Positions 1,281 through 52,326 of a stretch of 52,679 nucleotides of DNA are shown piece by piece. Location: positions 1 through 52,679 of the forward strand of contig CACYPU010000016.1 of assembly GCA_902776365.1 (NCBI GenBank). The letters run 5' to 3'. The translations under genes were made by a program, and so were the position numbers. The stretch is from an uncultured Bacteroidota bacterium. Lineage in GTDB: Bacteria; Bacteroidota; Bacteroidia; Bacteroidales; P3. The notes under the pieces are model-generated. The model was not told the DNA's origin. It searched no databases and saw only the letters and a program-made list of their open reading frames with translations. The number at the start of each line of letters is the position of its first letter. Position 1 is the stretch's first letter.

Positions 1281-1305
1281 AATTAAGAATTAAGAATTAA
1301 GAATT
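1281..1305. repeat. heptamer array, unit AATTAAG
   Basis: Three and a half perfect copies of AATTAAG lie just after the korB stop. The same unit, with variants, recurs at 7431-7451, so it is a dispersed word and not a local accident. Confidence 0.85.
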
Positions 1306-1319
1306 ATTAATTTCCACCC

Positions 1320-3563: not shown

Positions 3564-3577
3564 TAGATAATAGTTAG
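3544..3577. repeat. heptamer array AGTTAAT/AGATAAT spanning a gene end
   Basis: Units AGTTAAT, AGTTAAT, AGATAAT, AGATAAT, then AGTTAG. The array encodes the last residues (LIVNR) and the stop of the S8 protease and ends at the ATG of the next gene. Consensus AGnTAAT is shared with arrays at 5170, 12778, 18971 and 42143. Confidence 0.9.
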
Positions 3578-5175: not shown

Positions 5176-5204
5176 TAGATAATAGTTTATAGATAATAGT
5201 TATG
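5170..5204. repeat. heptamer array AGnTAAT supplying stop and start codons
   Basis: Five heptamers: AGTTAAT, AGATAAT, AGTTTAT, AGATAAT, AGTTATG. The rnhB stop (TAA) is in the first unit and the ATG of the next gene (5202-5204) is the end of the last unit. Confidence 0.92.
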
Positions 5205-6750: not shown

Positions 6751-7429
6751 CCTCAACGCTGTGCGCCAAGAATTCCTGTCGCGCATGACGCGCGGCAACG
6801 GAGCCCTCCTCCGCGAGGTCGAAGCCTTCGTCACCTCGCGGCCGGGCAAGATGCTGCGTCCGCAGCTCACCCTCCTCGCCGCCGACACCCTCGGCCAGGC
6901 TTCCTCGCGCCGCACCCTCCTCCTCGCCACCGCCGTCGAGATGCTCCACAACGCCTCTCTCCTCCACGACGACATCATCGACCATTCCGACACCCGCCGC
7001 GGACAGCCCTCTGTCAACGCCCGCTGGAACAACTCCGTGGCCGTCCTCGTCGGCGACTTCCTCCTGGCGCAAGTCATGCGTATCCTCCACGAAGTGGACG
7101 AACCCGACACCACACAGCGCGTCTACCAAACCGTCGAAGCGATGGTCGAAGCCGAACTTCTGGCCCAAGAAGAACTACCCACTACCCACTACTCACTACC
7201 CACTTACCTGAAAATCATCGACGGCAAGACCGCCCATCTCTTCGCCACCGCCTGCGCCCTCGGCAACCCCGAGTACGAGGAATTCGGCCTCCACTACGGA
7301 CGTCTCTTCCAGCTCCAGGACGACATCGCCGACGGCGAAGCCAACGAGCACACCGACGCCCTCGTCGAGCAGGAAAAAAACATCCTCCGTGCAATAAAAC
7401 CCTCCTTGACGATACCTAATCTTAAATAA
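6734..7429 (+). CDS. short polyprenyl diphosphate synthase homologue with heptad insertion
   Basis: 231 aa, starting MNLEDNLNAVRQEF inside the end of dapA. The first aspartate-rich motif is intact (LLHDDIIDHSD; Asp79, 80, 83) and a second is present (LQDDIAD; Asp196, 197, 200), as is DGKTAHLF at 163-170. Such enzymes chain isopentenyl units for quinone or undecaprenyl carriers. Two oddities: residues 148-158 (LPTTHYSLPTY) are encoded by a CTACCCA heptamer array at a site where relatives have a short loop; and only 31 residues follow the second motif, whereas members are usually near 320 aa. The missing C-terminal helices leave activity uncertain. Confidence 0.82.
   Translation: MNLEDNLNAVRQEFLSRMTRGNGALLREVEAFVTSRPGKMLRPQLTLLAADTLGQASSRRTLLLATAVEMLHNASLLHDDIIDHSDTRRGQPSVNARWNNSVAVLVGDFLLAQVMRILHEVDEPDTTQRVYQTVEAMVEAELLAQEELPTTHYSLPTYLKIIDGKTAHLFATACALGNPEYEEFGLHYGRLFQLQDDIADGEANEHTDALVEQEKNILRAIKPSLTIPNLK
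7175..7202 (+). repeat. in-frame heptamer array CTACCCA in the polyprenyl synthase gene
   Basis: Four units (CTACCCA, CTACCCA, CTACTCA, CTACCCA) encode PTTHYSLPT-type peptide just before the conserved YLKIIDGKTA segment. The same unit occurs inverted at 32202 and in the bipartite elements at 37688 and 39045. Confidence 0.92.
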
Positions 7430-7430
7430 G

Positions 7431-7452
7431 AATTAAGAGTTAAGAATTAAGA
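7431..7452. repeat. heptamer array AATTAAG/AGTTAAG
   Basis: Three units directly after the polyprenyl synthase stop and ending about 10 bases before the TlpA start. Same word family as 1281-1305. Confidence 0.85.
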
Positions 7453-7462
7453 AATCAATACC

Positions 7463-7972
7463 ATGAAAAAAATCCTTTTGGCAGTATTGCTGCTTTCACC
7501 TTTCACCTTTCACCTTTCACCTTTGATGGCTCAAAACGCCAAATTTCCTGAGAACATCACCCTGAAGGACATCAACGGCCAGAGCGTCCAGTCCTCCGTC
7601 ATCCAGAACGACGGCAAACCCGTCATCATCTCCTTCTGGGCCACCTGGTGCAAGCCCTGCAACCTCGAGCTCAACAACATCAAGGAAGTCTACGAAGAAT
7701 GGCAGGAAGAGACTGGCGTGAAGATTGTCGCCATCTCCATCGACGATGCCCGCAGCGCGGCCCGTGTAAAACCCCACGCCGAAGGCAACGACTGGCCCTA
7801 CGAGATCTACCTCGACCAGAACTCCGACCTCAAACGCGCCATGGGCGTGGTCAACGTGCCCCATACCTTCATCCTCAACGGCGAAGGTGAAATCGTATGG
7901 CAGCACACCGGCTATCAGGTCGGCGGCGAAGAGGAAGTCATCGAGAAGGTCCGCGAGCTGCTGGGAAACTGA
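7463..7972 (+). CDS. TlpA-like periplasmic thioredoxin
   Basis: 169 aa. A signal peptide (1-23, ending LMAQ) leads to a thioredoxin fold with FWATWCKPC (Cys63, Cys66) and the cis-Pro loop NVPHTFILNG near 133. Proteins of this group reduce periplasmic disulfides, for example in cytochrome c maturation or in redox defence; which one cannot be told here. The hydrophobic core of the signal peptide (LSPFTFHLSP) is encoded by four TTTCACC heptamers. The gene converges on a DUF6266 gene whose open frame runs back into the last 58 bases. Confidence 0.9.
   Translation: MKKILLAVLLLSPFTFHLSPLMAQNAKFPENITLKDINGQSVQSSVIQNDGKPVIISFWATWCKPCNLELNNIKEVYEEWQEETGVKIVAISIDDARSAARVKPHAEGNDWPYEIYLDQNSDLKRAMGVVNVPHTFILNGEGEIVWQHTGYQVGGEEEVIEKVRELLGN
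7494..7521 (+). repeat. heptamer array TTTCACC forming a signal-peptide core
   Basis: Four perfect TTTCACC copies within the first 20 codons of the TlpA-like gene. Read in this frame they give the repeating peptide SPFTFHL. Confidence 0.93.
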
Positions 7973-14980: not shown

Positions 14981-17287
14981 ATGAAAGTAGTCAGTAAACA
15001 GTGGTCAGTGTTCAGCAAGCTGTGTAAGATTCTATGCACCGCCATATTTTTCAATTTTCAATTTTCAATTTTCAATTCTCTTCAGGCCCAGAGTGTCGGC
15101 TACACCGACCATCAAGGCCGGGTGGTGGATGCGACGACGGGCAAGCCGCTGCCCAATGCCACCGTAACACATGGCTATCGTAGTGAACAAACTGACGCCA
15201 AGGGGCGTTTCACGGTGCGCTACTATGACACTGAGAGCGACCTACGAGTTTTTGTGTCGCATCCGGGTTACAAGACCGACACTTTCAGTTATGTGCCCAC
15301 TTTCGTTAGCCTGCACCGTCTCACTGCCGCCTCGCAAAAGGACCGTCCCAAAGTAGGCGTGGTCCTCAGCGGCGGCGGAGCCAAGGGTGTGGCACATATC
15401 TCGGCGCTGCGTGTCATCGAGCAGGCCGGCATCCCCATTGATTACATCTGTGGCACTTCGATGGGCTCCCTGGTTGGCGGCCTCTATGCCATAGGCTGGT
15501 CGGTCGACGAACTGGATTCCATCGTGCAGCACCAGGACTGGTCCTACCTGCTGACAGACCGCCCGAAACCCGACATCGTGGACTTGGACACCCGGCAGCT
15601 GATGACGACCTATCCGCTGTGGTATGCCTTCACCAGCGGACGCCGCAACGAGAGCGCCGGATTCATCCGTGGTTCGAACCTCGACAAGCTCTTCGACCAG
15701 CTGCTGGTGGGCTACACCGACTCCCTTTCCTTCGACTCGCTCCCCATCCCCTTCGCCTGCGTGGCGACCGACGTGGTGACCAACTCCGAAGTGGACTTCC
15801 GCAGCGGCCATCTGAAGCAGGCCATGCGTGCCTCAATGGCTATTCCCGGTGTGTTCTCCCCCGTGAGGATGAACGACAAAGTGCTGGTAGACGGAGGAGT
15901 GGTGAACAACTACCCTGCCGATCTCCTGCGAGAAATGGGGGCCGACATCATCATTGGTGTGACCGTGCAAGGCGATACCCTGACAGCCGACGACTTCGGC
16001 AACGCGCTCGACATCATTATACAGGTGATGGACGTGAAGGGCAAGGATAAATACAATGACAATATCAGCAACAGCGACCTGGTTATGAAAGTGGATGTGA
16101 GCGGCTTCAGCGGTGCAAGCTTCTCGTCGGGTTCCATCAAAACCTTGCTGCAGCGAGGTGCCGAGGAGGCCCACAGCCATTGGAACGAACTGCTGGCACT
16201 GCGCCGCGAGCACCATATCGACTCGGTGCCGGTGCCCACACGTTCCCGCACCCAAGCAATCAAGCAATCTCGCAATCAGGCCGTCCAGCACACGCCGGTG
16301 GCCTCATCGCCCATTGTCGGTGTCGCCTTCCGCTTCGACAACGAGGAGACTGGCGCGCTGCAAGTGGGAACGCTCCTACCCTATCGTTTCGCTGGAATGC
16401 CTATGGAACTCTACGGCCACTTGCGACTCGGCGATTGCATACAGGTATTCGTCGAGAACCGCACCTTCCCCCACGGTATCACCTCGCCGACGGTGAGTTA
16501 CTCCTTCCGCAAGGACAATCTGGACATTTACGCCGAAGGCGTGCGCAGCTACAATGTGAAATACTACCGACACACCTTCGAGGCCATACCTATCAACTCC
16601 ACCTTCCGCCGCTATAGGCTGCGGGCAGGACTGCGCTACGACTACTACGACTTCTACTCGCCGATACTCTCGGCAGGCACCTCGGCCATCCACATGGACG
16701 ACCACCAGCTCGTGTCGTATTTCTTCCAGTCGGAAATCAACACCGAGGACCATCCCTACCTCCCCACCTCGGGTGTCCACATGCTCAGCTCCTTCACCTA
16801 TCACACCGACAATTTCTTGGGCTATGACGGCACCCACGGCATCAGCGACATCAAAGCCCTGTGGAGCGTCTCTCTCGCCGCCTCCTCGAAACTCACCTTC
16901 AGGCCCTCGCTCTACGGACGCCTCCTGCTCCACGAAGGCGACGTCCCCTTGACGCTCTCCAACGCCCTGGGAAGCCCTAATCAGATTGTCGAACAGCAGA
17001 TTTACTTCCCCGGAGTCCGGAGCCTCACCTTCACCGAGCGATGCTTCGTCTCGTTCCAAATACGGATGCAATTCAACATCACCGGCAGCCACTACCTGTT
17101 GCTGGATGGCGGAATAGCCCGCGCCACACTAAACCTTAAGGATATCGCTAACGACTGGCCCAACCTCTGGGGAGCCTCTATCGGCTACTGCTACTACACC
17201 TTCCTCGGCCCCATAGAAGCATTGCTGGGCTATTCCTCGCTGGCTCCCGGCATGAACTTCTATCTCAGCCTAGGACACCGTTTCTAA
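14981..17287 (+). CDS. patatin-like phospholipase fused to an outer-membrane barrel
   Basis: 768 aa from ATG 14981, just past the MATE stop (earlier ATGs lie inside MATE). After the signal peptide (to about 37) comes a carboxypeptidase-regulatory-like domain (about 38-112), then a patatin domain with GGGAKG (131-136), GTSMG with Ser160 and DGG with Asp304, the catalytic dyad. From about 455 the sequence is a BamA/surface-antigen-like beta barrel (YSFRKDNLDIYAEGV, ending FYLSLGHRF). This is the layout of PlpD-type type Vd autotransporters, here with an N-terminal extra domain. Two heptamer arrays occupy the first 35 codons and an 8-bp array encodes part of the linker (QAIKQSRNQAVQ) before the barrel. 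Confidence 0.9.
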   Translation: MKVVSKQWSVFSKLCKILCTAIFFNFQFSIFNSLQAQSVGYTDHQGRVVDATTGKPLPNATVTHGYRSEQTDAKGRFTVRYYDTESDLRVFVSHPGYKTDTFSYVPTFVSLHRLTAASQKDRPKVGVVLSGGGAKGVAHISALRVIEQAGIPIDYICGTSMGSLVGGLYAIGWSVDELDSIVQHQDWSYLLTDRPKPDIVDLDTRQLMTTYPLWYAFTSGRRNESAGFIRGSNLDKLFDQLLVGYTDSLSFDSLPIPFACVATDVVTNSEVDFRSGHLKQAMRASMAIPGVFSPVRMNDKVLVDGGVVNNYPADLLREMGADIIIGVTVQGDTLTADDFGNALDIIIQVMDVKGKDKYNDNISNSDLVMKVDVSGFSGASFSSGSIKTLLQRGAEEAHSHWNELLALRREHHIDSVPVPTRSRTQAIKQSRNQAVQHTPVASSPIVGVAFRFDNEETGALQVGTLLPYRFAGMPMELYGHLRLGDCIQVFVENRTFPHGITSPTVSYSFRKDNLDIYAEGVRSYNVKYYRHTFEAIPINSTFRRYRLRAGLRYDYYDFYSPILSAGTSAIHMDDHQLVSYFFQSEINTEDHPYLPTSGVHMLSSFTYHTDNFLGYDGTHGISDIKALWSVSLAASSKLTFRPSLYGRLLLHEGDVPLTLSNALGSPNQIVEQQIYFPGVRSLTFTERCFVSFQIRMQFNITGSHYLLLDGGIARATLNLKDIANDWPNLWGASIGYCYYTFLGPIEALLGYSSLAPGMNFYLSLGHRF
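14986..15019 (+). repeat. heptamer array AGTnnnC at the patatin gene start
   Basis: AGTAGTC, AGTAAAC, AGTGGTC, AGTGTTC, AGCAAG encode VVSKQWSVFSK directly after the start codon. A reverse-strand relative with the same QWSV peptide is in the DUF4254 gene (18853-18887). Confidence 0.85.
15052..15079 (+). repeat. heptamer array CAATTTT forming a signal-peptide core
   Basis: Four CAATTTT-type units encode FNFQFSIFNS, the hydrophobic stretch just before the LQAQ cleavage region. The same word occurs on the other strand in the GT9 gene at 17845-17883. Confidence 0.93.
16254..16277 (+). repeat. 8-bp array AAGCAATC in the patatin-barrel linker
   Basis: AAGCAATC, AAGCAATC, TCGCAATC encode QAIKQSRNQ, a polar linker between enzyme and barrel. 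Confidence 0.75.
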
Positions 17288-19011: not shown

Positions 19012-20130
19012 TATTCCCGTACAAAGCGCAAGGGTAAAGATGATGGGGATGAAGGCCACGCTCAAGTGACACCACACCACCCATACCAACGCCACAGCGA
19101 ACATCGCCAGCTGCAGCCATAGTTCAAACCTAGGCGTGCGACCCATAAAAATGGCGATGTGTAGCAGCAGCGGCGACGCCCACAAAATATTCAGGTTCCA
19201 TTGTGTACAGTAATGGTCCGTCCCAAACCACATGAAGAGTAGGAACAAGCCGATGAGCCCTGCAACAACAAAAAGCACCCTTGTCAGCAAATTAAACAGC
19301 GAAAAACGCAACTGGAACCGCCTGTCGCACATCCACGCCGCAACCACCACCGCAAACAGCAGCGCAAACACCACCAACGGCGGGAAACTATCCTCCACCT
19401 CGCCCCTTCTCTCCTCCAGCAGCGTTACCGTCGGTCCCACCAGAGGCTTCCCCTCACGCTCAGCCTCGCCAAACTCCTCCTCCATCACCAGCGGGTAGAA
19501 CATCGCCTCGTCGGCCGTGCAACAGTGGTCCGCAGGCAAACCCAACAGCAGGTCCACACCCAGCGCCCACCACTCCAGCTTATTTTTCATCGCCAGATGC
19601 AAGTAGTCGCGATAGCTCATCGTCTCTCTCACGCTGTATTCAGCCCTTTTGTGGCCACAAACCTCCAGCACCCTGTCCCTCACCTCCGTGGCACAGTTCC
19701 TCGTAAAAAAATCGTAATTGTATACGCGGTTCTCAGGCAGCGCGTTCCATTGAAGCTTTAGGTAAAGGTTGTTCACCTCCTCGGGCGTGAAATTCAACTC
19801 CTGCTCCCACACCGCACGTCCCTCTCTCCGGTAGTCCTCCAAAAAAAATATCGTAGCCGTACTGTCAACCCAATAATGCAACCGTCCCCGCATAAAATGC
19901 CAGTAAAAATTCGGCTCCCCGAAATCGAACATGCCGTAATTGAACACCACATCGCGCCCCGTCGCACTGTCGCATATCCTTATCGCACTATGCCCGAAAC
20001 TCGTATAGAAATCATCACCCGCACCGCACGTAATCACACTCGCCCTCGCGCCCTCGCCCAGCGGCAAACCCTGCCCCCGAGCGCTGAACATCAAACAAAA
20101 CGAAAAAAACAAAAAAAACGCTCTTCTCAT
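18991..20130 (-). CDS. DUF4105 (Lnb-like) membrane protein
   Basis: 379 aa: signal peptide to about 19 (MRRAFFLFFSFCLMFSARG), a periplasmic DUF4105 domain with the conserved SFGHSAIRI (about 44-52), NYGMFDF and FFTRNCATEVRDRV (catalytic-type Cys in RNCAT), then about five membrane helices from residue 253. DUF4105 is related to Lnb-type lipoprotein N-acyltransferases, cysteine-histidine enzymes, so a role in lipid or lipoprotein acyl transfer at the periplasmic side is plausible but not shown. It reads together with DUF4254 and GT9, joined by heptamer arrays. Its last residues are repeat-encoded. Confidence 0.85.
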   Translation of the reverse strand: MRRAFFLFFSFCLMFSARGQGLPLGEGARASVITCGAGDDFYTSFGHSAIRICDSATGRDVVFNYGMFDFGEPNFYWHFMRGRLHYWVDSTATIFFLEDYRREGRAVWEQELNFTPEEVNNLYLKLQWNALPENRVYNYDFFTRNCATEVRDRVLEVCGHKRAEYSVRETMSYRDYLHLAMKNKLEWWALGVDLLLGLPADHCCTADEAMFYPLVMEEEFGEAEREGKPLVGPTVTLLEERRGEVEDSFPPLVVFALLFAVVVAAWMCDRRFQLRFSLFNLLTRVLFVVAGLIGLFLLFMWFGTDHYCTQWNLNILWASPLLLHIAIFMGRTPRFELWLQLAMFAVALVWVVWCHLSVAFIPIIFTLALCTGILLRDNS

Positions 20131-20135
20131 TAGCC

Positions 20136-20177
20136 GTTAATCATTAATCGTTAACCGTTAACCATTAACCATTATTA
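20136..20177. repeat. six-unit heptamer array GTTAACC/ATTAACC
   Basis: GTTAATC, ATTAATC, GTTAACC, GTTAACC, ATTAACC, ATTATTA lie between the MscS and DUF4105 genes. The stop codon of the MscS gene is the last three bases. The same word is inverted on itself at 24291-24352. Confidence 0.92.
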
Positions 20178-24290: not shown

Positions 24291-24352
24291 AAACGGTTAA
24301 TGGTTACACCAGCGTTAGGCGCCGTTAACCATTAACCGTTAACCATTAAACT
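24291..24352. repeat. bipartite inverted element of GTTAACC/ATTAACC heptamers
   Basis: AACGGTTAATGGTTA (24292-24306) is the exact reverse complement of 24326-24340, with a 19-base core (CACCAGCGTTAGGCGCCGT). Further heptamers follow to 24352. It lies between the cupin gene and the DUF1015 gene and may act as a terminator-like hairpin for neither strand in particular. Confidence 0.88.
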
Positions 24353-31649: not shown

Positions 31650-31678
31650 GGTTAGTGGTTAGTGGTTAGTGGGTAGTG
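31650..31678. repeat. heptamer array GGTTAGT/GGGTAGT at a gene end
   Basis: GGTTAGT x3, GGGTAGT. On the minus strand it encodes the last residues (LPTNH) and TAA stop of the glycosyltransferase. Confidence 0.9.
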
Positions 31679-32855
31679 ATTGGAGGATTTGTTCGAGGGG
31701 TTGGACGGCGGCGGGCCAGGAGTAACGTTCACGGACGAAACGATAGCCTTCCTCAGCAATGCGAGTACGCTCATCTTCGGTACCAAGAAGCAAACATATC
31801 CAGTGGGCCAAATCTTCCTTGCTGTCGCCGACAAACAGCTGGTCGCCCGATGTTGCACCAAGGGCGGCATTGGCCAGGCTTGTTGTGACACAGGGCTTCT
31901 GCATAGCCATTGCTTCGAGGAGCTTATTCTGGAGGCCGGAGCCTATGCGCATGGGTGCGACAAAGACCTGCGAGGAGACGTAGGCGGAGCGTATGTCGGG
32001 TATGCGTCCGCTAACCGTTACTTTCTCGGGTTTCAATGCCTTGGAAGCCAACGCCCGTACTGCGGGCTTGGGGTCGGCGCCGGCAATCAGCACAGTGGCA
32101 GAGGGACAATACTCCCACACCAAGGGCATGACCTCGTTAACGAGGAAGCAGGCGGCGTCAACGTTGGGGGCGTAGGACATGTTGCCGCAGAAGCAAATTG
32201 AGTGGGTAGTGGGTAGTTGATAGTGGGTAGTATTGAAGTAGTCGAGGTCGACGCCGTTGGGGATGATGTGGATTTCGCCGTTTCTCTTGTGGGGGATGGC
32301 GTCGGAGTCGACGTCGGAGATGATGGTGAGGGCGTCGAAGATGGAGAAGGCTTTGTATTCGGACGACCGCAGCATCTTGAACTCGTAGTGCAGGAGGTAG
32401 TGCCAGAAGCCGTGTGTGGTCTCCATGCGTCGCTCAGTATTCATGGATAGGGCGTCCTGGAAGTCCATGACTTTGGGGAAAGGCAGGCGTGCGACGAGGG
32501 GCATGGTGCGCACCATCTGGTTGTAGACAACATCGGGCTGCACCTCGCGGGCGAAGGCCTTGCAGGCGCGTTTGGAGCGCTTGGTGTTCCAGTAGCCCAT
32601 CTGGAGGGATTTGGAGGCGAACCAGTTGCGGAGTATGTTGAGGGCACAGACGAAGCGGTTGAGGCGGAAGAGGCGAATCTGGCGGCAGTAGGGTTCGAGG
32701 GCTTTGAGGTGCTCGGGTTCGACGCGCTGGTGGCTGACGGCGAAGAGGTAGATGTCGTGGTGCTTGGAGAGCTCGACAATCTGGTGGTAGGCGCGGAGCT
32801 TGTCGCCCTTGTCGAGGGGCCAGGGGAAGCGAGGGAGAACGACCAAAATCTTCAT
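31659..32855 (-). CDS. GT4-type glycosyltransferase with heptad insertion
   Basis: 398 aa, GT-B fold. Start KILVVLPRFPWPLDKGDKLRAYHQI is the donor of the N-terminal domain; VFVAPMRIGSGLQNKLLEAMAMQKP carries the conserved C-terminal E-x7-E-like sugar-nucleotide site. This type acts in surface polysaccharide or exopolysaccharide assembly on the cytoplasmic face. Residues about 207-219 (YFNTTHYQLPTTH) are repeat-encoded and fall at the hinge between domains, just before ICFCGNMSYAPN. The last five residues are repeat-encoded too. Confidence 0.87.
   Translation of the reverse strand: MKILVVLPRFPWPLDKGDKLRAYHQIVELSKHHDIYLFAVSHQRVEPEHLKALEPYCRQIRLFRLNRFVCALNILRNWFASKSLQMGYWNTKRSKRACKAFAREVQPDVVYNQMVRTMPLVARLPFPKVMDFQDALSMNTERRMETTHGFWHYLLHYEFKMLRSSEYKAFSIFDALTIISDVDSDAIPHKRNGEIHIIPNGVDLDYFNTTHYQLPTTHSICFCGNMSYAPNVDAACFLVNEVMPLVWEYCPSATVLIAGADPKPAVRALASKALKPEKVTVSGRIPDIRSAYVSSQVFVAPMRIGSGLQNKLLEAMAMQKPCVTTSLANAALGATSGDQLFVGDSKEDLAHWICLLLGTEDERTRIAEEGYRFVRERYSWPAAVQPLEQILQSLPTNH
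32202..32236 (-). repeat. in-frame heptamer array GTGGGTA in a glycosyltransferase gene
   Basis: GTGGGTA, GTGGGTA, GTTGATA, GTGGGTA, GTATTGA (plus strand). The gene reads the CTACCCA sense, stop-free in every frame. Confidence 0.92.
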
Positions 32856-37164: not shown

Positions 37165-38247
37165 TTACACATTAACGCATTCAATCAGTTTCTTTTTCTC
37201 CTTGTTCCAATCCATATCCTTGCGAGCCTCGGCGAAATCGGCGTCGGTCCACTCTCTCGACAACACCTTCCTCACAGCCTCCGCCAACGCTCGTGCGCCC
37301 ACATCTTCCATAATGGTGCCGATATGGAATCGGTGCACCACTGCCGCCATTTCGGGAAGGTCGCTCACCACTATCGGGACTCCTGCGGCAATAAAATCGC
37401 CTATTCTGTTCGGTAGCGCAAAGTGGTAGCTCTGTCCCATATCCTCCAGCATCACCAGTCCTACGCTCGCCTGTCGTGTCAGCGGTTCCAACTCTTCCGG
37501 TTTCAAACGTCCGAGGAACTCGATGCGATCCTTCCAAGGCTTACTCTCTGCGTATTTCTTCATATCCTCCAGCAGGTCGCCGATGCCGGCAATCACCAGT
37601 CGGCAGTCCTCCAACCATTCCAGCGCATCAATCGCCCAATCCACCCCTCGACCCAAATTCACCGCTCCTTGATAGAGCAGCATTTTAGTGGGTAGTGGAT
37701 AGTGGATAGTGGATAGTGTTTGGTCCTGCGTGCTACCCACTACACACTCCCCACTACACACTCCAATATTCCTCACCACCGTCATCTTCACACCGTATTT
37801 CTCCCTATAGTAGTCGGCAATACTCTGGCACACAGTAATCAGCGCATCGCATTTGGGCATCAGCCTCCGCTCAAGCCTCTCCCACATCTTCTTCACTTTC
37901 TCTCTCCCCACCAACTCAGGCACTTCGGGAAACAACTCGTGGGCATCCATCACCAACCTCTTCATCTTCATCTTCGCCGCCACATAACTCGCCAGCAGCG
38001 TGTCCGTGTCGTTGGCCCACACAATGTCGCATTTTGTCCGCAGCAGGCGCCACCACAACCGCAGGTTGTACTCGGCATAGAACTTCCACGTCTTCTTGCT
38101 CTTCACCCGCAGCTCATTCCGCCCTATAAGAATCACTTCACATCCTGCCTCACGAAGAGCCTCCGCATGGCGCATCACCCTCCGGTCGGTCACCAAATCG
38201 TTGGTCACCGCCATCACTATCCTTATCTTTCTACCACTGACGCTCAA
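37165..38247 (-). CDS. GT4-type glycosyltransferase carrying a bipartite repeat element
   Basis: 360 aa, GT-B fold. RIVMAVTNDLVTDRRVMRHAEALREAG starts the N-terminal half, CDALITVCQSIADYYREKYG ends it, and VSVGLVMLEDMG-like text (ASVGLVMLEDMGQSYHFALPN) with RIGDFIAAGVPIVVSDLPEM is the C-terminal donor site. The probable role is surface polysaccharide synthesis. The start is a TTG; GTG 38217 or ATG 38214 are alternatives. Residues about 167-192 (GVCSGECVVG through YPLPTK) are encoded by a 76-bp element and sit at the interdomain hinge. The same element, in opposite orientation, is in the NUDIX gene 1.3 kb away. Confidence 0.85.
   Translation of the reverse strand: MSVSGRKIRIVMAVTNDLVTDRRVMRHAEALREAGCEVILIGRNELRVKSKKTWKFYAEYNLRLWWRLLRTKCDIVWANDTDTLLASYVAAKMKMKRLVMDAHELFPEVPELVGREKVKKMWERLERRLMPKCDALITVCQSIADYYREKYGVKMTVVRNIGVCSGECVVGSTQDQTLSTIHYPLPTKMLLYQGAVNLGRGVDWAIDALEWLEDCRLVIAGIGDLLEDMKKYAESKPWKDRIEFLGRLKPEELEPLTRQASVGLVMLEDMGQSYHFALPNRIGDFIAAGVPIVVSDLPEMAAVVHRFHIGTIMEDVGARALAEAVRKVLSREWTDADFAEARKDMDWNKEKKKLIECVNV
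37688..37763 (-). repeat. bipartite heptamer element, copy A (in GT4 gene)
   Basis: Plus strand: GTGGGTA, GTGGATA x3, GTG, a core of 14 bases (TTTGGTCCTGCGTG), then CTACCCA, CTACACA, CTCCCCA, CTACACA, CTCC. Read on the minus strand it has four GTGnnTA-like units, core GCACGCAGGACCAAACA and four CTATCCA-like units: same order and core as copy B. Confidence 0.95.
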
Positions 38248-38320
38248 TACCTTATCCTAAAATTTCAACTATCAATTTTAAATTAAAATATATTAAGTAA
38301 CGAATTACAAAAAAAAATCG

Positions 38321-38328
38321 TATTTTTG
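38321..38328 (+). promoter_or_regulatory. -7 box of the META lipoprotein operon
   Basis: TATTTTTG, 27 bases before the GTG start at 38356. The TTG inside it (38326) is therefore not a start. Confidence 0.6.
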
Positions 38329-38355
38329 CAGTCGAAAATTTTATCAACAAACCCT

Positions 38356-38814
38356 GTGAAAAACCTCACCAACACACTCTTGTCCCTCTTTGCCTTGTGT
38401 ACCCTTGCCGCTTGCGCCAGTTCGCGGCCGGCCAACAAATCGGCACTCGAAATCCCTGTCTTCGACAAAGACCAGGTCTGGCAACTCACAGACATGCGTG
38501 GGAAGCCTGTCGACACACAAGGGAAAACCTTTACCCTCCAACTCTACCCCGACGCTGGCATCGTCCGCGGATACATGGCATGCAACATGTATTTTGGCCA
38601 TTACACCTGCCATCCCGGCGACCCGCAGACAGGCCGTTACCCCATTGAAATCGTCCTCGAGGGCTCGGGTTCTCTCGGGTGTCCCGAAGCCGACATGAAT
38701 GCCGACAGCCGCTACTATGCCCTCCTGCTCAAAGCCACCCACTTCTCCTACACCTCCACCACCCTCACCCTCTACCAAAACGATAAAGAGATTCTCCGTT
38801 ACGAATTGCAATGA
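38356..38814 (+). CDS. META-domain lipoprotein
   Basis: 152 aa from GTG 38356, which begins a lipoprotein leader (Val/[22 protein letters not shown], lipid at Cys20). The mature part [31 protein letters not shown], and [18 protein letters not shown] fits the META fold of heat-shock HslJ type envelope proteins. The exact role is unknown. It overlaps the NUDIX gene by 4 bases. Confidence 0.82.
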
Positions 38815-39323
38815 AACTTAGTTATAAATACCACTCCTTCAACATCCCCCTATGCCTGCTGCGCCTCCTGAAGCGTCGCATGCGGTGGGTACGTGCCGCC
38901 GGTGGCATCGTCACCGCCCCCGATGGTACCATGCTCCTCATACAGCGCAACGGCCGCTGGGACCTCCCAAAAGGCAAGGTCGAGCCCGGCGAAACCCTCC
39001 TCCAAGCAGCCCTCCGCGAAGTAGAGGAAGAAACTGGCATTAAAGTGGATAGTGGACAGTGGATAGTGGGTAGCACTCAGGTCCAAATGCTATCCACTAC
39101 CCACTACCCACTACCCACTAAAACCTACCACATCTTCAATCTCTACGGCGGCTGGCACCTCAAACAAACCTCCTGGTTCCCCATGAGCGCCGAAAAACAA
39201 GCCGGCACCGCCCAGCAGGAAGAAGGCATCACCGCCGTCGTTTGGGTCTCCCCCGACGAATGGCACCGCCGTCTCTCCTCCTCCTACGGCACCCTTAGAA
39301 CCCTCGAAAAACAGATTCGTTAA
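38811..39323 (+). CDS. NUDIX hydrolase carrying a bipartite repeat element
   Basis: 170 aa. The NUDIX box is complete ([22 protein letters not shown], matching Gx5Ex7REUxEExG), preceded by [26 protein letters not shown]. Such enzymes hydrolyse nucleoside diphosphates linked to another group. Right after the box, about 25 residues ([13 protein letters not shown], then [11 protein letters not shown]) are encoded by a repeat element and replace the loop leading to the next strand ([10 protein letters not shown]). The catalytic helix itself is intact. Followed 25 bases later by dprA. Confidence 0.88.
39045..39117 (+). repeat. bipartite heptamer element, copy B (in NUDIX gene)
   Basis: GTGGATA, GTGGACA, GTGGATA, GTGGGTA; 17-base core GCACTCAGGTCCAAATG; CTATCCA, CTACCCA x3. 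That is 28 + 17 + 28 = 73 bases. The left and right halves are reverse complements, so a hairpin with the core as loop is possible. Confidence 0.95.
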
Positions 39324-44649: not shown

Positions 44650-47600
44650 CTATTTACTATTATTTTTCAGCAGACGAACAGTGTGTCGCCCACCGTCGGC
44701 GGTAATGATGGTAAGTAGATATACTGCAGGGGAACAAGAGGTGACATCCAAGAGATAATCACCACTTCCTGCTGCCGTGAATTTCAAATCTTCTCGGCGA
44801 CCCAACATATCAGTGAGATATGCTGCAACAAGATGGTCGGAAGTGACGACTATCACCTTTCCATCCGTCGGGTTCGGGTATACCTTACAGTCAACCAAAT
44901 GTGCCACATCAATGGACTCTGCCTGCTGGAAGATAGCCATCAGCGAAGTGTCGCCAGTTACAATCAAACTTCTCGGATTGGTTGTGTCACCATCGTTCCA
45001 TTGAGCAAAGAGATAGTTCTCGTGAGGTGTAGCCGTCAAGGTGGCGGTGTCTCCACGGTAGTAAAGACCACCACCCGTCACTGTACCATATTCGGCGTTG
45101 TTGGAAACGACGGTAATGATGTGGAAGGGTCTTGGCAGCTCCCCATTGCTGGGTTCGATGATAATGTTATCGATGGCAGCAGGTGTTTGGTGGTAACCTC
45201 CCAAGTTGTTGTGCCACATGAAAACCAACAGATAATTACCGGGAGTGGCAATATGGAAGGTGCCAGACTGGTTCTGCCAGGTTGTACACAGGTTTAGTTG
45301 ATTATGGTTATCGAGGTCGATGCCGCCTTCCGGCACCTCGTTCTCGTCGAAGCCGCTAAGATGGCCTGGCGTGAGGACAGTGTATGCCGGCACAATTGCT
45401 GCTCGAAGGTAATCGAAGTGCACCTCCCCATTACATTTCCAATCGAAACCATAGGCATAGTCGCCCACAGTATCGAAGCGAAGAGCATAGGAGGCAAACA
45501 CCGTGGAGGCCGAACCACTGTAGTTATTGCTGGCGCCATTGTCGCTGATATAGAGCGAGCGGCCAGGATGGCCCGTGGCACTTCCTATCATCCAACGGTT
45601 GTGCTGGTCGCCATTGACGAGGGTCCATCGGTCGGAGTAGTCGTCATCAAACCCACCGGAGCAGGGCAGCGTGTCGGGAGCGACGGAAAGAGTAGCCGCA
45701 ACTACACGCTGTGCCACTACCGAATCCAGGCAGCTGGGGTAAACGTAGATGTGATAGACGGTGCCGGAAGCGAGTCCCGTCAAGGTGAGTGACGTATGAT
45801 GCCTGACGAGCGAGGAGCTGTCAATCTCGCCTTCGCCGCAGGCTACCGTCATCATTCCGCCAGCCCCCGAGCGGCTGGAAGTGCCAGGGATGAAGTCGGC
45901 AGTGTCGTACTCGACATGCCAGAGGGTGCTACTCCGGCTGGTATCGCTCCACGCGATGGTGAGGCTGTCGAGGCTCGCATAGACGGCACGCAACTCCTCA
46001 GCCGGGGCGCAGGGAAGCTCGTCGAGGACGATGTCGTCGATATAGGGCCGGTTCGTTTGCGGAATGTCATGCGGAGCCATGAAGGCCACATGGCCGTGGG
46101 GACCGAAGTAGCGGTTCAGCCGCACGATGTGGTGCGAGTAGTCGCTGAGGGAAACGATACGGGCGGTATCGACAGCTACGAAGGAGGCCGTGTCGGTGGG
46201 GTCGCTCATCACGCCCACCACGATAAACGAGTTGTAATAGAAGTGGGCCGTGCGCATCCAGAACGACACCTGCAGGCTCGACACAGGGTACCGCGTCGAG
46301 TCGGTGAGGGGCATGATGGCCAGCTGGTCTGAAGATGAACAGGGAGCATGGAAGCGCATAGCGTTGGTGCCGCCATGGGCGTAGGTGGCGTCGTTGTGCA
46401 CCCAGGGACCACGGCCATAACAGTCGTTGTAATACAGCCAGCATTCAGGCAGTGTGTTCTCGGGCGAGTATGTAGCGTACGAGGGAATGCCATTGACGCT
46501 TTCAAAGTCCTCCACAAAGGGCAGTGCGGCAAGTGGGCTGCAGAGGGTGTGGAACGGTTCTGGGTAAGAGGAATAACCCTCGCTACCACCACAGCTGGCG
46601 ACCACCACCAGCTCGTAGTCGCTGTTGGGGTTGAGACCTCCAATGAAGGCATTGTTGTCATAGAAGATTTGAGGCTCAACGCTGCCGATGTCGAATCCCG
46701 GTGCGCCGACATATACCAGCCACTGGTCGGGGTTGGCGTTGCCATCGGCTCCACAAGGATGCAGACCGCAATCCCAAGTGGCGAAGACGCTGTCGGCAGT
46801 GACGTGCGTCACGCGGACATGCTCGGGTGTGGGACAGGGCCTCGACAGCCTCAGTTCGATATTGTCGAGGTCGAAACCGTTGTTGGGCATAGTATCGCTT
46901 TCGGGCGAAGGGGTATAGAAGACAATGTACCGGCCGCTGCCCGTATAGTTCACGAACCGTACCGTGACAGAATGGAGCGAGGCGACAGGTTCATCGCTGA
47001 GGTCAACGGTGTCGACAGGCACAAAGCCGGAATAGGTGTAGGCATGCGAGGGAACGGAATGCTCCATGCTGGCTGCAGGCAAGTACCCCGAGAACCAGGT
47101 GACATCCTCGGCGACACCTACAATCAGGCGCGAGTACGGAATCGGACTAACACCACTGCCGGGACGCTCGATAAGAAAGTTCACCTCCAATTCGGTGATG
47201 TCTATCGAGGTATCCAGGCGTGGCAGGGCTGCCCAGCGGTAGTTATTCGAACCGGAACTCATATTGAATCCTACGGTGTCCTCGCCGATATACGTATGTG
47301 TGGCGTGCGGCCTGCTCGAAATGCGGGATGGCACCGAGCCCCTGCGCCAGCAGGGATTGATATCTTCCTCGTAGCCATACGCGTAGCTCTCGAAGTCCTC
47401 TCTAAATGGCAGGTCGTCGTAGGTCAGCGGCGGGCACTCCGTCTGGATACTCCCTGTCTGGAAGATGCTGCTGAGACTTGTACATTCGGCAGCGACGGCA
47501 TAGTTGTAGAGGGTGTTGCTTGCAAGCGGATGGAAGGTGTAGAAGGTGTCGGTGATTCCACTTACAGTGTCGCCGCCCAGGACGGCAGTGAAGCTGTTGT

Positions 47601-50600
47601 TGCCCTCAGGGCTCCATACAAGTGTCACCGAAGTGTCGGTACATGAGGCTCTCAGGTGCGAGATGGGGTAGCACAGCTGGTTGGTGAGCACAAGATCGTC
47701 GAGCAGCAGCTCGCGACCGTAAGTAGGTACAGAACCGCGAATGGCGATATAGTTGCCCGTGCCGCTATAGTTGGCGAAGTTGACCGTATAGAGCGTGACG
47801 TCGATTGTGGGAGTGATGGTGTCGACGGGGATGAAATTGGCGGTGTCGCCGTCGTGGTCCATCACACCGATGATATAGGAACCTCTCATGTCGCTGTTGC
47901 TCAATGTCCGGGCGTAGAACATCAGGTAGAGGTCACGGGTATTGTAGGCACCCTTGTCGACCGGAGGCAGCACAACGTATAAGTTTTTATATTCGGTGGT
48001 CAACTCCCAATACATACTGTTGTCGCCGTGGATGCCGCTGGTGCCGTTATTCCTGTTGTAGGGGCGGCCGTTGTAACTATTGTTGGAGGGAATGTCGTTG
48101 ACACGCTTCCAGCAGGCGGGGAAGGCCTCGACGTAGGAGGTGTTGTGCAGAGAGTAGTAAGGCGTATTCTCGAAGTCGTTGATAAGAGGCAGCGTGCTGA
48201 GAAGGTAGCAGGGGGTATGGAACGAATTCGACCAAAAGCTGCTGGTGTCGCCTGCGCCGCAGATGGCACGGATGCTAACGGTATACACCGTGTCGGCTTC
48301 AAGTCCGTGGATATTAAATACGGTGTCGGTGAGATAGTATATGCTGTCGCCTATGGTGAGTTCCCACGCCGTCTCGCTGCCGCCCCTTGACCAGTAGACG
48401 GTGGCGCTGTCGGGGGTAACGTCGCGGAAGCGGATGTTGGCCACACGGCGGCACATGGGCTCGTAGCTGACGGTGATGTCGTCGATGGTGACGGACCAAT
48501 CGGCCAATGAGGGCCGGTTGGCGCGGATGGCAATATACTGTCCGTCGCTGTTGTAGTTCTCGAACGAGACTTCATACCTGTCCCATACGCGAATGGCGGG
48601 GTCGATAAAGACGGAGTCTACCGTCTGGAAGGTGTTGATGTCGTTCGGATTGGTCATCACGCCCACAATGAGCACCGGGTCGTCATTGCGGGTCGAAGAC
48701 CTCGCCCAGAAGTTGAGATACAATGCGTTGATTGCATCTATGCTGGTATCTACCGGAGGCAGGACGATGGCCTGGTAGTTGCAGAAATAGGTGCTTGCAG
48801 AGACACCGAAGCCCAGTCCCCGGTTACCCGTGTGGGCACCGGAAGAGATGACGGGGTGGGCGTGTTGGAAGGAGACATCGTTGAGATGGTGCCAGCAATG
48901 TATATTGGCAGGCACTGAGCCGCCGCCGACGGGCAGACCTTCGAACCCGTAATGGAAGGGGATGCTGAGGGGTATGCAAGGAGTGGTGACGGTGACCGAC
49001 GAGGATAGTAGGGTGTCGGTACAGTTGGCCGTGACACGGAGCTCATAGATGGAGCCCGGTTCCAGGTCGGCAATGGAAAAGAGGTACTCGGTGGCGGTGG
49101 TCTCGGTGGCGACATTGACCCACTCGCCGGTATCGGCCGGATTGGCTAGGCGATAGTCGACATCCCATGACGCTTCATGATAGCCGGGAATCCACAAAAG
49201 CCTGACGATGCCCGTGACGCTCGTGTCGACAAGTGTGACTGGAGGGATACAGGTGGCCCTAGCGGTGCAATATACATCTTGGCCACCGGTGATGAGGCGT
49301 GTGTTGCTGCGCATATCGAGATTGGTGGTGCCCAACCCGTATGGCACATTGCGATTGGGCCGACCAGCCCATCGGGTCATAATGCGATCCGGGGTATTCT
49401 CCTGGCGGAATGAACGGGGCGTAGGGATAGCCACTCCGTTGTTTTTGGTAATTACCACACTTAGGTTGCTGACACCGTCGTATTCGAAGGCTCCCTGGTT
49501 GAATGGGATGTAGTTCCAGCCTTCGGTGGTAAAACTAAGAGTGCCGCTAAAGACCAACTCTCCTCCGCCGATAAGGTTAGGGTTGGTGACACCCGACAAA
49601 TCGGCATTTGGGCTGTGAGACAGATAGATTTCGCAGTTGCCGACTTGGTATGGCTGATTGTCGGCATAGTCGAATCCTATGCCGGTTATCGTTGTCGGGC
49701 CCGTGGCGGGGATCTCCGACGCCAAGAAGAGATGCTGCACTATGGAGAACGGAGCACCTGCGTAGACAGGATACATGGCGCTGGTCGCTGTCCCGGGGAT
49801 GCCCAGCACAATGGTGTCGACCGCCCGGGCGATGGTATCCCAGCTGATGCAGGGCAGCTCCTGGGTCCTGATGACAATGGTGTCTGCCCCACCATTCAGA
49901 CCTCCGCATTCGGCGGAAACCGACACCCAATAGGAGCTGTTTGGGGCAAGTCCTGTAATCAGAAACTCCGGCTCGTAGGTAACGACGGTGGTGAGCGTGG
50001 TGTCTTCAACATGGCGGTAGCTGACCTCGAAGCTTGTGGGAGTGCCGAATTCCGTGTTGAAATCCCACGTCAGCCGTGCTGCCGAGGCGGTGGCTATGGT
50101 GTGTATGGCGCTGATAGAAGGGCATCGGTTGGGTATCTCCTCGAGGACGACGTCGTCGAAAACGAACATGGCGGACGACTCCGACTTGAACGCCACATGA
50201 CCGTGAGGCCCGTCGTAATTGGCAAATCCTATCGTGAAACGCTCAAAGAGCATAGACCCTGAGATGGTGACGCGCCTTATCGGCACAAAGGTGCTGGTGT
50301 CTCTGGGGTCGCTCATCACGCCCACGGTGACATACGCTGTGCGTCCTGTGTTGTTGACGCGGAGACTCTTTGTCCAAAACGACACTTGCAAAGAAGAAAG
50401 AGGATATGTGGATGCGTCGGTGAGCGGCATGATAGCGTATTGGTTCATACCGTTGAACAACATGGAGTTGACGCCGTTGTATACATACGACTGATCGGCG
50501 TACACAGTGTACGGATTATCGGTGTACACAATAGGACCGCCGCTGACGTTTAAGGGGTATCCGGTGTTGTAGTACAGCCAGCAGGGAGGCAGATTGTTGA

Positions 50601-52326
50601 CCCTCGAGTAGTTGCCGTCGATGCCCACGACGCTTTCGAAGTCCTCCATAAAAGGCAGTGTGTTGAGAGGGGAGCACAGCGTGTGGAACCGCACAGGATA
50701 GGAGGGGTCGCTCAAGCCGCTTTCACAGTCGGCTTGCACCATCAGTGCGTACTCGGTATTGGGAGTCAGGCTGTAGAAAGTGCCACTGTTGCCCTGCACA
50801 TAATACGGAGTGAATGTACTGATATCCGCCCCGGGGGTGCCGATCAACACAAGGCAGCTGTCGGCCTCGACACCGTCCCATGTGGCCGAAACGTTGTTGT
50901 GTGTGATGTGCGTTATGCGGACGTGCTGCGGTGTCGGGCAGGGATTTGCCACCTTGAGGACGACATTGTCGATGATGAAACTGTTGTAAGTCGACGATGG
51001 CAAACTGTCGGACAGTTGTGGAGCAAGGAAGGTGATGTATTTGCCGCTGCCCGTATAGTTTTCAAACCTCACGGCGACGGGGTGTATGGAGTTGATTGCC
51101 TCGCTGCTGACATCGATGGTGTCGACGGGGACGAATGTCTGTAAACCGGATTGTTCGAAGGCTAGGATGTCGGAGACGACGCCCACGATGAGACGGCTTA
51201 TGGTGTTTGTCTGGGTGCTGCGTACGATGAGGAAGTCGAGCTCCAGGTTCTCGACCTGCACGTCGTCGTCCACCCGCTGCAGCGCGGCCCACTCGTAGGC
51301 TGTGCTCGAGGAGCCCATACTAAGACCCACAGTGTCGTTGTCGACTACGCAATTTACTGGGTATGGGTAGTTGACCGTCGGGCGGGAGTCACCTTTGCGC
51401 CAGCAGGGACTGATGTCATAAACATGGTAGCCGTAACTATATGCCTCGAAGTCCTCGGTGTAAGGCATATCCACATAGCTAAGCGGGCGGCATTCGGTCC
51501 GTATGCTGCCCCTCAACCAGGGGCTGGTTGTTCCCCCACACTCGGCAGCCACAGTAAAATCGTACACCGTGTTTTCCGTTAGACCCGAAAATGTATAGAA
51601 TGTGTCAGTAACTCCAGCGACTGTATTGTTGTTTATTACGATGGTGAAACTGCTGGCCCCGTTCCCTTCCCAGCTCAACGATACCTCGTTGTGAGAGGCG
51701 GTAGCTGTCAAGTTAGCAGGAGGTTCGCACCATTGATGGGTCAGATAGACATCGTCGAGAAACGCACCGAATTGTGAAGGGATACGCGGACAGCGGAAAG
51801 CGACATATCTGCCCGTGCCGGTATAGTTGGCGAAACTGACAGAATATAACGTGGCATTTAGGGTTAGATATACCGTGTCTATAGGCACGAATGTGGAGGT
51901 GTCGTCAGGAGTGTCCATCACTCCCACGATAAACATGGGAAACGGCGCCGACAAGACCGTCCCCTTTGCGTAAAATGAGATGTGGAGGTTAGCCATCGGG
52001 CCGAGTAAGTCCGTCTCCACAGCTGGCAGCACGGCATACTCATTGTTTGCGTAGCCGTAATGCTGAAAACACATACTCTTGCTGCCATTGATAACAAACT
52101 CTCTCTCGTTGGTAATATAAGGGTAATAGGCGCTTGACGTGCCGTCGTTGATACTTGTCCAGCATTCGGGGAAAGCATCCCACCTCGACGTCCCACCTAT
52201 CGAGTAGTGGGGCTCGTTCTCGAAATCATTATAATAAGGAAGGCTACTGATAGCGTCGCACCCCGACTGTGCTTTCGCCACCTGCACTACCATCATCAAT
52301 ATCAAAGGCAACAATAATCTTTTCAT
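44650..52326 (-). CDS. giant T9SS-sorted adhesin-like protein (2558 aa)
   Basis: Signal peptide 1-19, then a series of choice-of-anchor-J/MAM-like jelly-roll modules (each opening LP-x-x-x-DFE, with FPECW-type turn, then VGVM-D-DTSTFVP and YVAFR) at about 24, 279, 554, 1120, 1377, 1632 and 1932, separated by fibronectin-III-like domains. A different domain with PYQVGNCEIYLSHSPNAD occupies about 823-1020. Near 2215-2400 is a last jelly-roll, 2405-2465 an InlB-like repeat (YGTVTGGGLYYRGDTATLTATP), and 2479-2558 a type A T9SS sorting domain (KVYPNPTDGK). The blocks at 24, 279 and 554 recur at 1377, 1632 and 1932, an internal duplication. Likely surface adhesin or glycan binder; ligand unknown. 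Confidence 0.9.
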   Translation of the reverse strand: MKRLLLPLILMMVVQVAKAQSGCDAISSLPYYNDFENEPHYSIGGTSRWDAFPECWTSINDGTSSAYYPYITNEREFVINGSKSMCFQHYGYANNEYAVLPAVETDLLGPMANLHISFYAKGTVLSAPFPMFIVGVMDTPDDTSTFVPIDTVYLTLNATLYSVSFANYTGTGRYVAFRCPRIPSQFGAFLDDVYLTHQWCEPPANLTATASHNEVSLSWEGNGASSFTIVINNNTVAGVTDTFYTFSGLTENTVYDFTVAAECGGTTSPWLRGSIRTECRPLSYVDMPYTEDFEAYSYGYHVYDISPCWRKGDSRPTVNYPYPVNCVVDNDTVGLSMGSSSTAYEWAALQRVDDDVQVENLELDFLIVRSTQTNTISRLIVGVVSDILAFEQSGLQTFVPVDTIDVSSEAINSIHPVAVRFENYTGSGKYITFLAPQLSDSLPSSTYNSFIIDNVVLKVANPCPTPQHVRITHITHNNVSATWDGVEADSCLVLIGTPGADISTFTPYYVQGNSGTFYSLTPNTEYALMVQADCESGLSDPSYPVRFHTLCSPLNTLPFMEDFESVVGIDGNYSRVNNLPPCWLYYNTGYPLNVSGGPIVYTDNPYTVYADQSYVYNGVNSMLFNGMNQYAIMPLTDASTYPLSSLQVSFWTKSLRVNNTGRTAYVTVGVMSDPRDTSTFVPIRRVTISGSMLFERFTIGFANYDGPHGHVAFKSESSAMFVFDDVVLEEIPNRCPSISAIHTIATASAARLTWDFNTEFGTPTSFEVSYRHVEDTTLTTVVTYEPEFLITGLAPNSSYWVSVSAECGGLNGGADTIVIRTQELPCISWDTIARAVDTIVLGIPGTATSAMYPVYAGAPFSIVQHLFLASEIPATGPTTITGIGFDYADNQPYQVGNCEIYLSHSPNADLSGVTNPNLIGGGELVFSGTLSFTTEGWNYIPFNQGAFEYDGVSNLSVVITKNNGVAIPTPRSFRQENTPDRIMTRWAGRPNRNVPYGLGTTNLDMRSNTRLITGGQDVYCTARATCIPPVTLVDTSVTGIVRLLWIPGYHEASWDVDYRLANPADTGEWVNVATETTATEYLFSIADLEPGSIYELRVTANCTDTLLSSSVTVTTPCIPLSIPFHYGFEGLPVGGGSVPANIHCWHHLNDVSFQHAHPVISSGAHTGNRGLGFGVSASTYFCNYQAIVLPPVDTSIDAINALYLNFWARSSTRNDDPVLIVGVMTNPNDINTFQTVDSVFIDPAIRVWDRYEVSFENYNSDGQYIAIRANRPSLADWSVTIDDITVSYEPMCRRVANIRFRDVTPDSATVYWSRGGSETAWELTIGDSIYYLTDTVFNIHGLEADTVYTVSIRAICGAGDTSSFWSNSFHTPCYLLSTLPLINDFENTPYYSLHNTSYVEAFPACWKRVNDIPSNNSYNGRPYNRNNGTSGIHGDNSMYWELTTEYKNLYVVLPPVDKGAYNTRDLYLMFYARTLSNSDMRGSYIIGVMDHDGDTANFIPVDTITPTIDVTLYTVNFANYSGTGNYIAIRGSVPTYGRELLLDDLVLTNQLCYPISHLRASCTDTSVTLVWSPEGNNSFTAVLGGDTVSGITDTFYTFHPLASNTLYNYAVAAECTSLSSIFQTGSIQTECPPLTYDDLPFREDFESYAYGYEEDINPCWRRGSVPSRISSRPHATHTYIGEDTVGFNMSSGSNNYRWAALPRLDTSIDITELEVNFLIERPGSGVSPIPYSRLIVGVAEDVTWFSGYLPAASMEHSVPSHAYTYSGFVPVDTVDLSDEPVASLHSVTVRFVNYTGSGRYIVFYTPSPESDTMPNNGFDLDNIELRLSRPCPTPEHVRVTHVTADSVFATWDCGLHPCGADGNANPDQWLVYVGAPGFDIGSVEPQIFYDNNAFIGGLNPNSDYELVVVASCGGSEGYSSYPEPFHTLCSPLAALPFVEDFESVNGIPSYATYSPENTLPECWLYYNDCYGRGPWVHNDATYAHGGTNAMRFHAPCSSSDQLAIMPLTDSTRYPVSSLQVSFWMRTAHFYYNSFIVVGVMSDPTDTASFVAVDTARIVSLSDYSHHIVRLNRYFGPHGHVAFMAPHDIPQTNRPYIDDIVLDELPCAPAEELRAVYASLDSLTIAWSDTSRSSTLWHVEYDTADFIPGTSSRSGAGGMMTVACGEGEIDSSSLVRHHTSLTLTGLASGTVYHIYVYPSCLDSVVAQRVVAATLSVAPDTLPCSGGFDDDYSDRWTLVNGDQHNRWMIGSATGHPGRSLYISDNGASNNYSGSASTVFASYALRFDTVGDYAYGFDWKCNGEVHFDYLRAAIVPAYTVLTPGHLSGFDENEVPEGGIDLDNHNQLNLCTTWQNQSGTFHIATPGNYLLVFMWHNNLGGYHQTPAAIDNIIIEPSNGELPRPFHIITVVSNNAEYGTVTGGGLYYRGDTATLTATPHENYLFAQWNDGDTTNPRSLIVTGDTSLMAIFQQAESIDVAHLVDCKVYPNPTDGKVIVVTSDHLVAAYLTDMLGRREDLKFTAAGSGDYLLDVTSCSPAVYLLTIITADGGRHTVRLLKNNSK

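Follow-up and report, generated by a model that had tools for sequence, protein, structure and literature searches.

The best-known examples of palindromic DNA elements carried in frame within protein-coding genes come from Rickettsia and Wolbachia. The Rickettsia palindromic elements (RPEs) are palindromes of 105–146 bp that lie both within genes and between them; the available part of the same source also cites Wolbachia for coding palindromes, and Neisseria, Yersinia and archaea for small repeats fused into coding sequence (PMC2229807). Among heptad repeats, TAACTGA arrays occur in Beggiatoaceae, Cyanobacteria and some Bacteroidetes, according to an excerpt of PMC4679880. Here, in-frame coding palindromes are spread across a genus of uncultured Bacteroidales, in enough copies and species for rules to be read: one strand is used, the frame is kept, one stop is removed and loops are reused. 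Very probably these copies represent a family of non-autonomous palindromic DNA elements that spread within this one genus and are tolerated in permissive loops of proteins.

The window, the whole stretch of DNA that was analysed, is one entire contig of 52,679 nt from a 2.23-Mb genome in 18 contigs with ~90% completeness. Two copies in it, one in a NUDIX hydrolase gene and one in a GT4 glycosyltransferase gene, have the same layout of a four-heptad arm, an 18-nt core and an arm of inverted heptads (Table 1). Both had been reported in the initial annotation and are present as described, open in frame, with 18 of the 24 residues from SG to K identical when counted on the translations. Their limits required small corrections: the locations were right, but the GT4 copy exceeds 37688–37763 by a few bases and the NUDIX copy reaches 39120, and the 17-base core sequences quoted there are found in both copies as part of a core one base longer. 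The two hosts, described as sharing no ancestry, indeed belong to different Pfam families (NUDIX versus Glyco_transf_4 with Glyco_trans_1_4).

Table 1. Coordinates of the element copies, their host genes and related single-arm arrays in the window.
Feature	Position	Strand	Remarks
NUDIX hydrolase host gene	38811..39323	+	element between EETGI and KTYH
NUDIX copy, left arm	39045..39072	+	four heptads GTGG(A/G)(T/C)A; unit 2 is CAG where TAG would stop
NUDIX copy, core	39073..39090	+	18 nt, GCACTCAGGTCCAAATGC
NUDIX copy, right arm	39091..39120	+	four inverted heptads, TATCCAC / TACCCAC
GT4 host gene, family 4 / group 1 glycosyltransferase	37165..38247	-	insert between VVRN and MLLYQG
GT4 copy, first arm (coding sense)	37734..37764	-	GAG form of unit 2
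GT4 copy, core	37716..37733	-	18 nt
GT4 copy, second arm (coding sense)	37686..37715	-	
Single-arm array, same heptad	7172..7205	+	in-frame LPTTHYSLPT in ORF 6629-7429, strong coding score
Single-arm array	32201..32233	-	in-frame NTTHYQLPT in ORF 31659-32855

The repeats of the window are not due to chance: when up to 3 mismatches are allowed, the window holds 20 hits to an 18-base arm pattern (overlapping ones counted), versus 0.06 expected from shuffles. Folding of the NUDIX element as a hairpin gives z scores of -7.0 as RNA and -6.2 as DNA, and an Rfam search with this hairpin returned only five miRNA hairpin matches, far under gathering scores. Structure prediction for the NUDIX protein alone gave a mean pLDDT of 38, too low for use. 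What appears to be the counterpart of ORF 31659-32855 in genome G039 (L224) has, at the equivalent position, a two-arm copy whose first arm is shortened, as judged by eye. The window also holds a single ORF of 2558 codons at 44650-52326 (-).

A search of the window's own genome with the NUDIX copy as query gave 82 matching pieces, which, once both strands of each palindrome were merged, correspond to at least 23 two-arm copies and many single-arm matches. Twenty-two two-arm copies, some with a shortened arm, were examined, and a further one is located at C4:82436-82504. Sixteen of the 22 are in frame in a long ORF, four have no spanning frame, and two (L018, L023) have an open frame yet look intergenic. 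Pfam families were assigned to 14 of the 16 in-gene host proteins: NUDIX, NTP_transferase, APH/RapZ C-terminal, a GH20-related protein, MraW, glycosyltransferase, peptidase M28, SAM methyltransferase with PUA, tRNA pseudouridine synthase, PIF1 helicase, amidohydrolase, FAD-dependent oxidoreductase, poly-A polymerase/CCA type, and a protein with AIRS_C and GATase_5 (the host names RsmH, TruA and ManC used below are taken from Pfam families and solved homologues). The presence of the element in frame in 14 genes beyond the two in the window supports the earlier proposal that the DNA, not the protein, was copied.

Within the genus, 38 of 120 genomes contain a match, own included, some to one arm only; genome G037 seems to hold more copies than the seven examined from it, including one in a TruA gene (C7:73607-73711). 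Across the order, matches occur in 13 of 393 genomes, namely the window's own and 12 others with 24–32-base stretches that correspond to one arm; this search scored at most two candidates per genome and drew few genomes of the same family, and two-arm copies may exist elsewhere. The exact pattern was found 12 times among named genomes, in seven uncultured Bacteroidetes/Bacteroidales MAGs, one of them titled roe deer reticulum, and no match was found in plasmid and phage records.

The behavior of the element in genes was read from 82 copies in 11 genomes, comprising the 22 own copies and 60 from ten other genomes of the genus, with at most seven per genome; the 60 foreign copies are the best similarity matches to a coding copy, a choice that favours the coding form. 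Copies are 56–83 bp long, or ~76–80 bp when complete, and the inverted heptad arms form terminal inverted repeats, as in a MITE. Each 150-base flank of a copy was scored independently, using a hexamer model that had been trained on sequence of the own genome, and agreement of frame was not assumed. In 49 of the 82 copies, both flanks are in the same frame with no stop. Thirty copies are without two coding flanks; three of these (L003, L005, L013) are in frame by open frame only, which brings the in-gene copies to 52 in total. The other three copies have discordant frames or stops: L198 and L232, which are probably between genes, and L213 in G082.

Three regularities mark the in-gene copies. 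First, all 52 read one and the same element strand, as judged by eye, a few of them being shortened or having a 16-base core. Second, the coding frame encounters TAG within unit 2 of the first arm, and the first base of this triplet reads C or G in 49 of the 51 copies in genes versus 6 of 29 others (p 1.7e-12; one gapped copy left out per group, the 52nd in-gene copy and one other). This count includes copies that share descent and so are not independent, and a copy had to be free of stops to be labelled in-gene, a requirement on which only three copies failed. The corresponding base in units 1, 3 and 4 is T in most copies, in-gene and other alike, and the partner of the unit-2 base in the opposite arm is A in most copies. 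The first arm comes in two linked forms, in which the changed base and the one preceding it are mostly A-C or G-G; the forms are associated with C or T in the opposite arm (20 to 4 versus 6 to 17). Third, the core in genes is 18 bases (49 copies) or 16 bases (3 copies) long, and elsewhere 15–22. In the examined genes, the direction of insertion is always that which adds ~25 amino acids without a stop.

The strong hairpin might recall inserts that are taken out by RNA splicing or translational bypass; in that case, however, neither the frame nor the absence of stops would need to be kept, and both are, which leaves such removal hardly credible. The insert is presumably translated in the cell. 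As a mobile DNA element, the unit, ~76–80 bp when complete, would have an 18-bp core set between inverted arms that each contain about four TAGTGGG-type heptads, and its insertions would reach both genes and intergenic DNA. Those surviving in genes would be the ones that met a permissive loop, kept the frame and lay on the strand whose sole TAG, in unit 2 of the first arm, had turned to CAG or GAG. The translated insert, approximately V-G-S-G-(Q/E)-(W/C) followed by 19 protein letters not shown here, would be tolerated and not used.

Comparison of orthologous copies bears on whether the DNA or the peptide is maintained. Eleven orthologue sets were named by eye, and nine yielded 20 pairs, which are not independent, with flanks of up to 60 codons per side; the sets L001/L208 and L008/L197 had one parsed member each and were left uncounted. 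The ratio pN/pS is 0.64 in the element versus 0.21 in the flanks, and changes by codon position are near even in the element (62/65/83), whereas the third position dominates in the flanks (281/225/841). Codon-level constraint on the inserts is thus weak across the 20 pairs. Silent divergence is also lower in the element, with a pS of 0.185 versus 0.48 in the flanks. Because a high pN/pS is combined with fewer silent changes, it seems to be the DNA rather than the peptide that spreads. A selected peptide module, such as a loop or binding segment shuffled among proteins, would account for the single element strand in 52 of 52 in-gene copies and for the conserved peptide. It is nonetheless very improbable, given a pN/pS threefold that of the flanks, the near-even codon positions, the unrelated functions of the hosts, and the unrelated peptides that fill the same loops in sister species. 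The low silent divergence counts against the favored interpretation of a tolerated mobile element in its simplest form, since a single insertion followed by simple neutral decay would not produce it; it would fit DNA-level constraint, later re-insertion or conversion alike.

Orthologous filled and empty loops make the conversion of selfish DNA into protein directly testable. Among the 30 best-matching NUDIX loci, window included, the two-arm element is found only in the window, G082 and G108. The other loci have a short loop (L097, L106 and L114 among them), a single-arm remnant, or another array, the flavors including GTGATGA/TCATCAC (L120), CAGTGTT/AACACTA (L109) and GGAGAA-type/TTCTCAG (L110). 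In the GT4 loop, parsed at 16 of 20 loci, the two-arm element occurs in the window copy only, and GTGGAAA, GTGATGA, ATTCAAG-type and further arrays are found. These comparisons, made within the genus, agree with the initial view that the segment was inserted and is not an old part of either protein.

Several individual loops merit description. The NUDIX orthologue L120 (G087) has a second heptad-like array upstream of the NUDIX box (NSSLITHHSSL), such that one gene seems to hold two. In the GT4 orthologues L149, L162 and L163 (G009, G094, G084), a different REP-like, palindrome-like repeat lies in frame in the same loop and reads LTPSPSPRGEG / LTPGPSPAGEG, and about a dozen GTGGAAA-type heptads run through this loop in L161 (G089). 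Whether the NUDIX and GT4 flavors match within a species was compared by eye; some species agree and others differ.

Loop reuse was scored by a fixed criterion of at least 17/21 matches at lag 7, with the window excluded and best-matching loci only, at four sites picked for carrying the element in the window genome. For NUDIX, GT4, TruA and RsmH, 29, 19, 29 and 29 loci were given and 29, 17, 15 and 18 parsed, and the target loop contains an array in 12/29, 8/17, 2/15 and 0/18, respectively. Outside the loops, arrays number 1 in 17,475 bases, 2 in 18,447, 0 in 11,367 and 1 in 17,121. With a looser cut of 15/21 and the window species included, arrays are seen in 4/16 TruA and 3/19 RsmH parsed loci. 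NUDIX and GT4 show strong reuse of the loop and TruA weak reuse; for RsmH, none is seen by the fixed criterion.

At the insertion sites, the solved homologue and the host have 11 versus 30 residues in TruA, 1 versus 27 in the ManC type and 17 versus 37 in NUDIX; RsmH solved homologues have gaps at the element site, and the best solved homologue of the poly-A polymerase/CCA host aligns across the site with no evident insertion. The positions are probably surface loops, where the insert may be neutral to the host protein. In RsmH, the empty state is seen at 12 of the 19 parsed loci, where the loop has 9 residues versus 29 in the own genome. Empty orthologues appear to point to loss of native loop residues instead of a clean insertion, which counts against the favored interpretation. 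A clean insertion point is thus not apparent.

The main rival to an element moved in trans is conversion between arrays. In this view, slippage and hairpin-associated strand switching would create and alter heptad arrays in place, and recombination or conversion between arrays would spread them together with the core, without transposition. Many heptad flavors do coexist within one genome, sister species hold other flavors in these NUDIX, GT4 and TruA loops, single-arm forms are common, flanks are not clearly duplicated, and orthologous inserts have low silent divergence. However, an 18-bp core of identical type recurs in unrelated genes without common flanks, and ongoing homogenisation of copies within a genome was looked for and not seen: similarity is 0.864 at orthologous sites (23 pairs), only slightly above the 0.836 between copies in other genes of the same genome (191) and the 0.832 between copies in other genes of different genomes (1112). 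In-place origin of the arrays is thus possible, though unlikely. Paired changes that would uphold the hairpin are also absent; complementarity is slightly lower between the arms of one copy than between swapped arms (0.807 versus 0.825), which counts against hairpin maintenance.

No transposase linked to the element was found, which counts against the favored interpretation. Among the 82 copies, target-site duplications of 4–9 bases show no excess over swapped flanks, the element ends being uncertain by a few bases. Duplications of 4, 5 and 6 bases flank 17, 8 and 3 copies, versus swapped means of 12.8, 4.1 and 1.2 and maxima of 22, 10 and 5; the duplicated flanks raised in the initial annotation as a possible trace of insertion are therefore not evident beyond this level.

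Mobilisation as a REP/BIME-type element by a RAYT (Y1 transposase) was considered, as the element is palindromic and dispersed, REPs are known inside genes, in the available text of PMC3733652, and one Y1 domain is present in the own genome and in 73 of 119 genus genomes. The own Y1 match, however, spans only positions 40-121 of 121, and the 3.2 kb around it (L031) are without an array of the element's heptad, the only array there being a weak one of another type ~430 bases downstream (15/21 matches). In addition, no Y1 match was found in two carriers, G082 with 14 matching pieces and G078 with 10, both being incomplete MAGs (81 and 88%). RAYT was rejected as mobiliser for its inconsistent presence among carriers, and this origin is improbable. 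A reverse transcriptase (PF00078) was likewise rejected: it matches 45 of 119 genomes, is weak in the own genome, and lacks a match in the carriers G087, G078, G068 and G039. Because both enzymes are inconsistent among carriers, no target duplication stands out and the arms do not covary, the copies are best read as a non-autonomous element that would be moved by an enzyme acting in trans and is passively tolerated in proteins.

The two-arm element belongs, as one flavor, to a broader system of heptad repeats. Across 452,679 bases of the own genome (20 sampled stretches plus the window), there are 87 period-7 arrays, about one per 5 kb, whereas any other period from 4 to 15 gives at most 27. 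Forty-five lie inside ORFs, 20 across a gene edge and 22 between genes, a rough split given that the crude gene caller missed at least one ORF (6629-7429). With ~91% coding sequence, the arrays are frequent in ORFs yet still under-represented there. The sampled sequence contains at least nine two-arm pairs, several of other heptads (the script missed at least the GT4 copy and that of L003, which is within a sampled stretch). A core shared across heptad flavors was looked for by eye, and no claim was upheld. This wider system, the reuse of the same loops with other heptads, and the stop-removing base of in-gene copies were overlooked in the initial annotation.

Intergenic and gene-edge regions often have about four heptad copies, mostly of a different heptad at each, for example at window positions 1281-1306, 3544-3576, 5173-5202, 7427-7453, 20128-20174 and 24322-24349. 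About a dozen arrays with a period of 7 (of units such as CTTTCAC and TTTTCAA) seem to encode the hydrophobic core of N-terminal signal peptides, as in MKKILLAV-LLLSPFTFHLSPL-MAQN. Such arrays lie in the window at 7487-7528 and 15044-15082, and in L127, L129, L130, L131, L132, L133, L136, L139, L142 and L144; they suggest that part of the heptad DNA has been put to use. It is conceivable, if rather doubtful, that an ongoing process in the genus repeatedly places palindromes of 7-bp units, varying in sequence, in the same protein loops and in signal peptides, with coding-competent masters as donors, which would make mobile heptad DNA a source of loop and secretion-signal diversity.

A literature search for the peptide, the arm sequence, elements of this type and heptad repeats, covering few subscription papers, gave no report of the present element. 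Suyama and colleagues in 2005 reportedly described palindromic repeats with coding potential in archaea, M. jannaschii among them, whose open frames are fused into protein genes; the present element resembles them in this fusion and differs from them in its bacterial host. The GGGAATC and GGGGATT arrays of Xanthomonas and Nostoc also have 7-bp units, with four preferred and, in Xanthomonas, frequent inverted pairs, but in the part of that source available they are rich in G, interpreted as forming G-quadruplexes and under-represented within ORFs (PMC4692102). The element described here has the unit GTGGGTA and a core common to its copies, many flavors of the wider system are not G-rich or are AT-rich, and 52 of 82 examined two-arm copies are in frame, in a sample that favours coding-like copies. 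TAACTGA arrays are also heptad direct repeats with Bacteroidetes among their hosts and some copies in ORFs. They differ, as far as the excerpt describes them, in consisting of a single heptad in nearly always direct orientation, mostly just upstream of start codons, with forward arrays that put stops in all three frames (PMC4679880). REPs and BIMEs tagged with GTAG/CGTC are palindromic and lie in part within genes, including tRNA pseudouridine synthases, in several species; the available sections of that work describe them as 20–40 bp, tagged and often accompanied by a RAYT, in contrast to the present element with no consistent RAYT (PMC3733652).

The closest likeness is to RPEs, which, in the portion of the report cited, are likewise palindromic, genic and intergenic, in frame in conserved unrelated proteins, and without a transposase of their own (PMC2229807). 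The present element differs in its length of ~76–80 bp versus 105–146 bp, in arms of 7-bp tandem units and in its phylum, and stop removal is visible between its in-gene and other copies. The analogy with RPEs drawn in the initial annotation is supported by this shared behavior as one of features, and the element would be placed beside RPEs, not classed among them.
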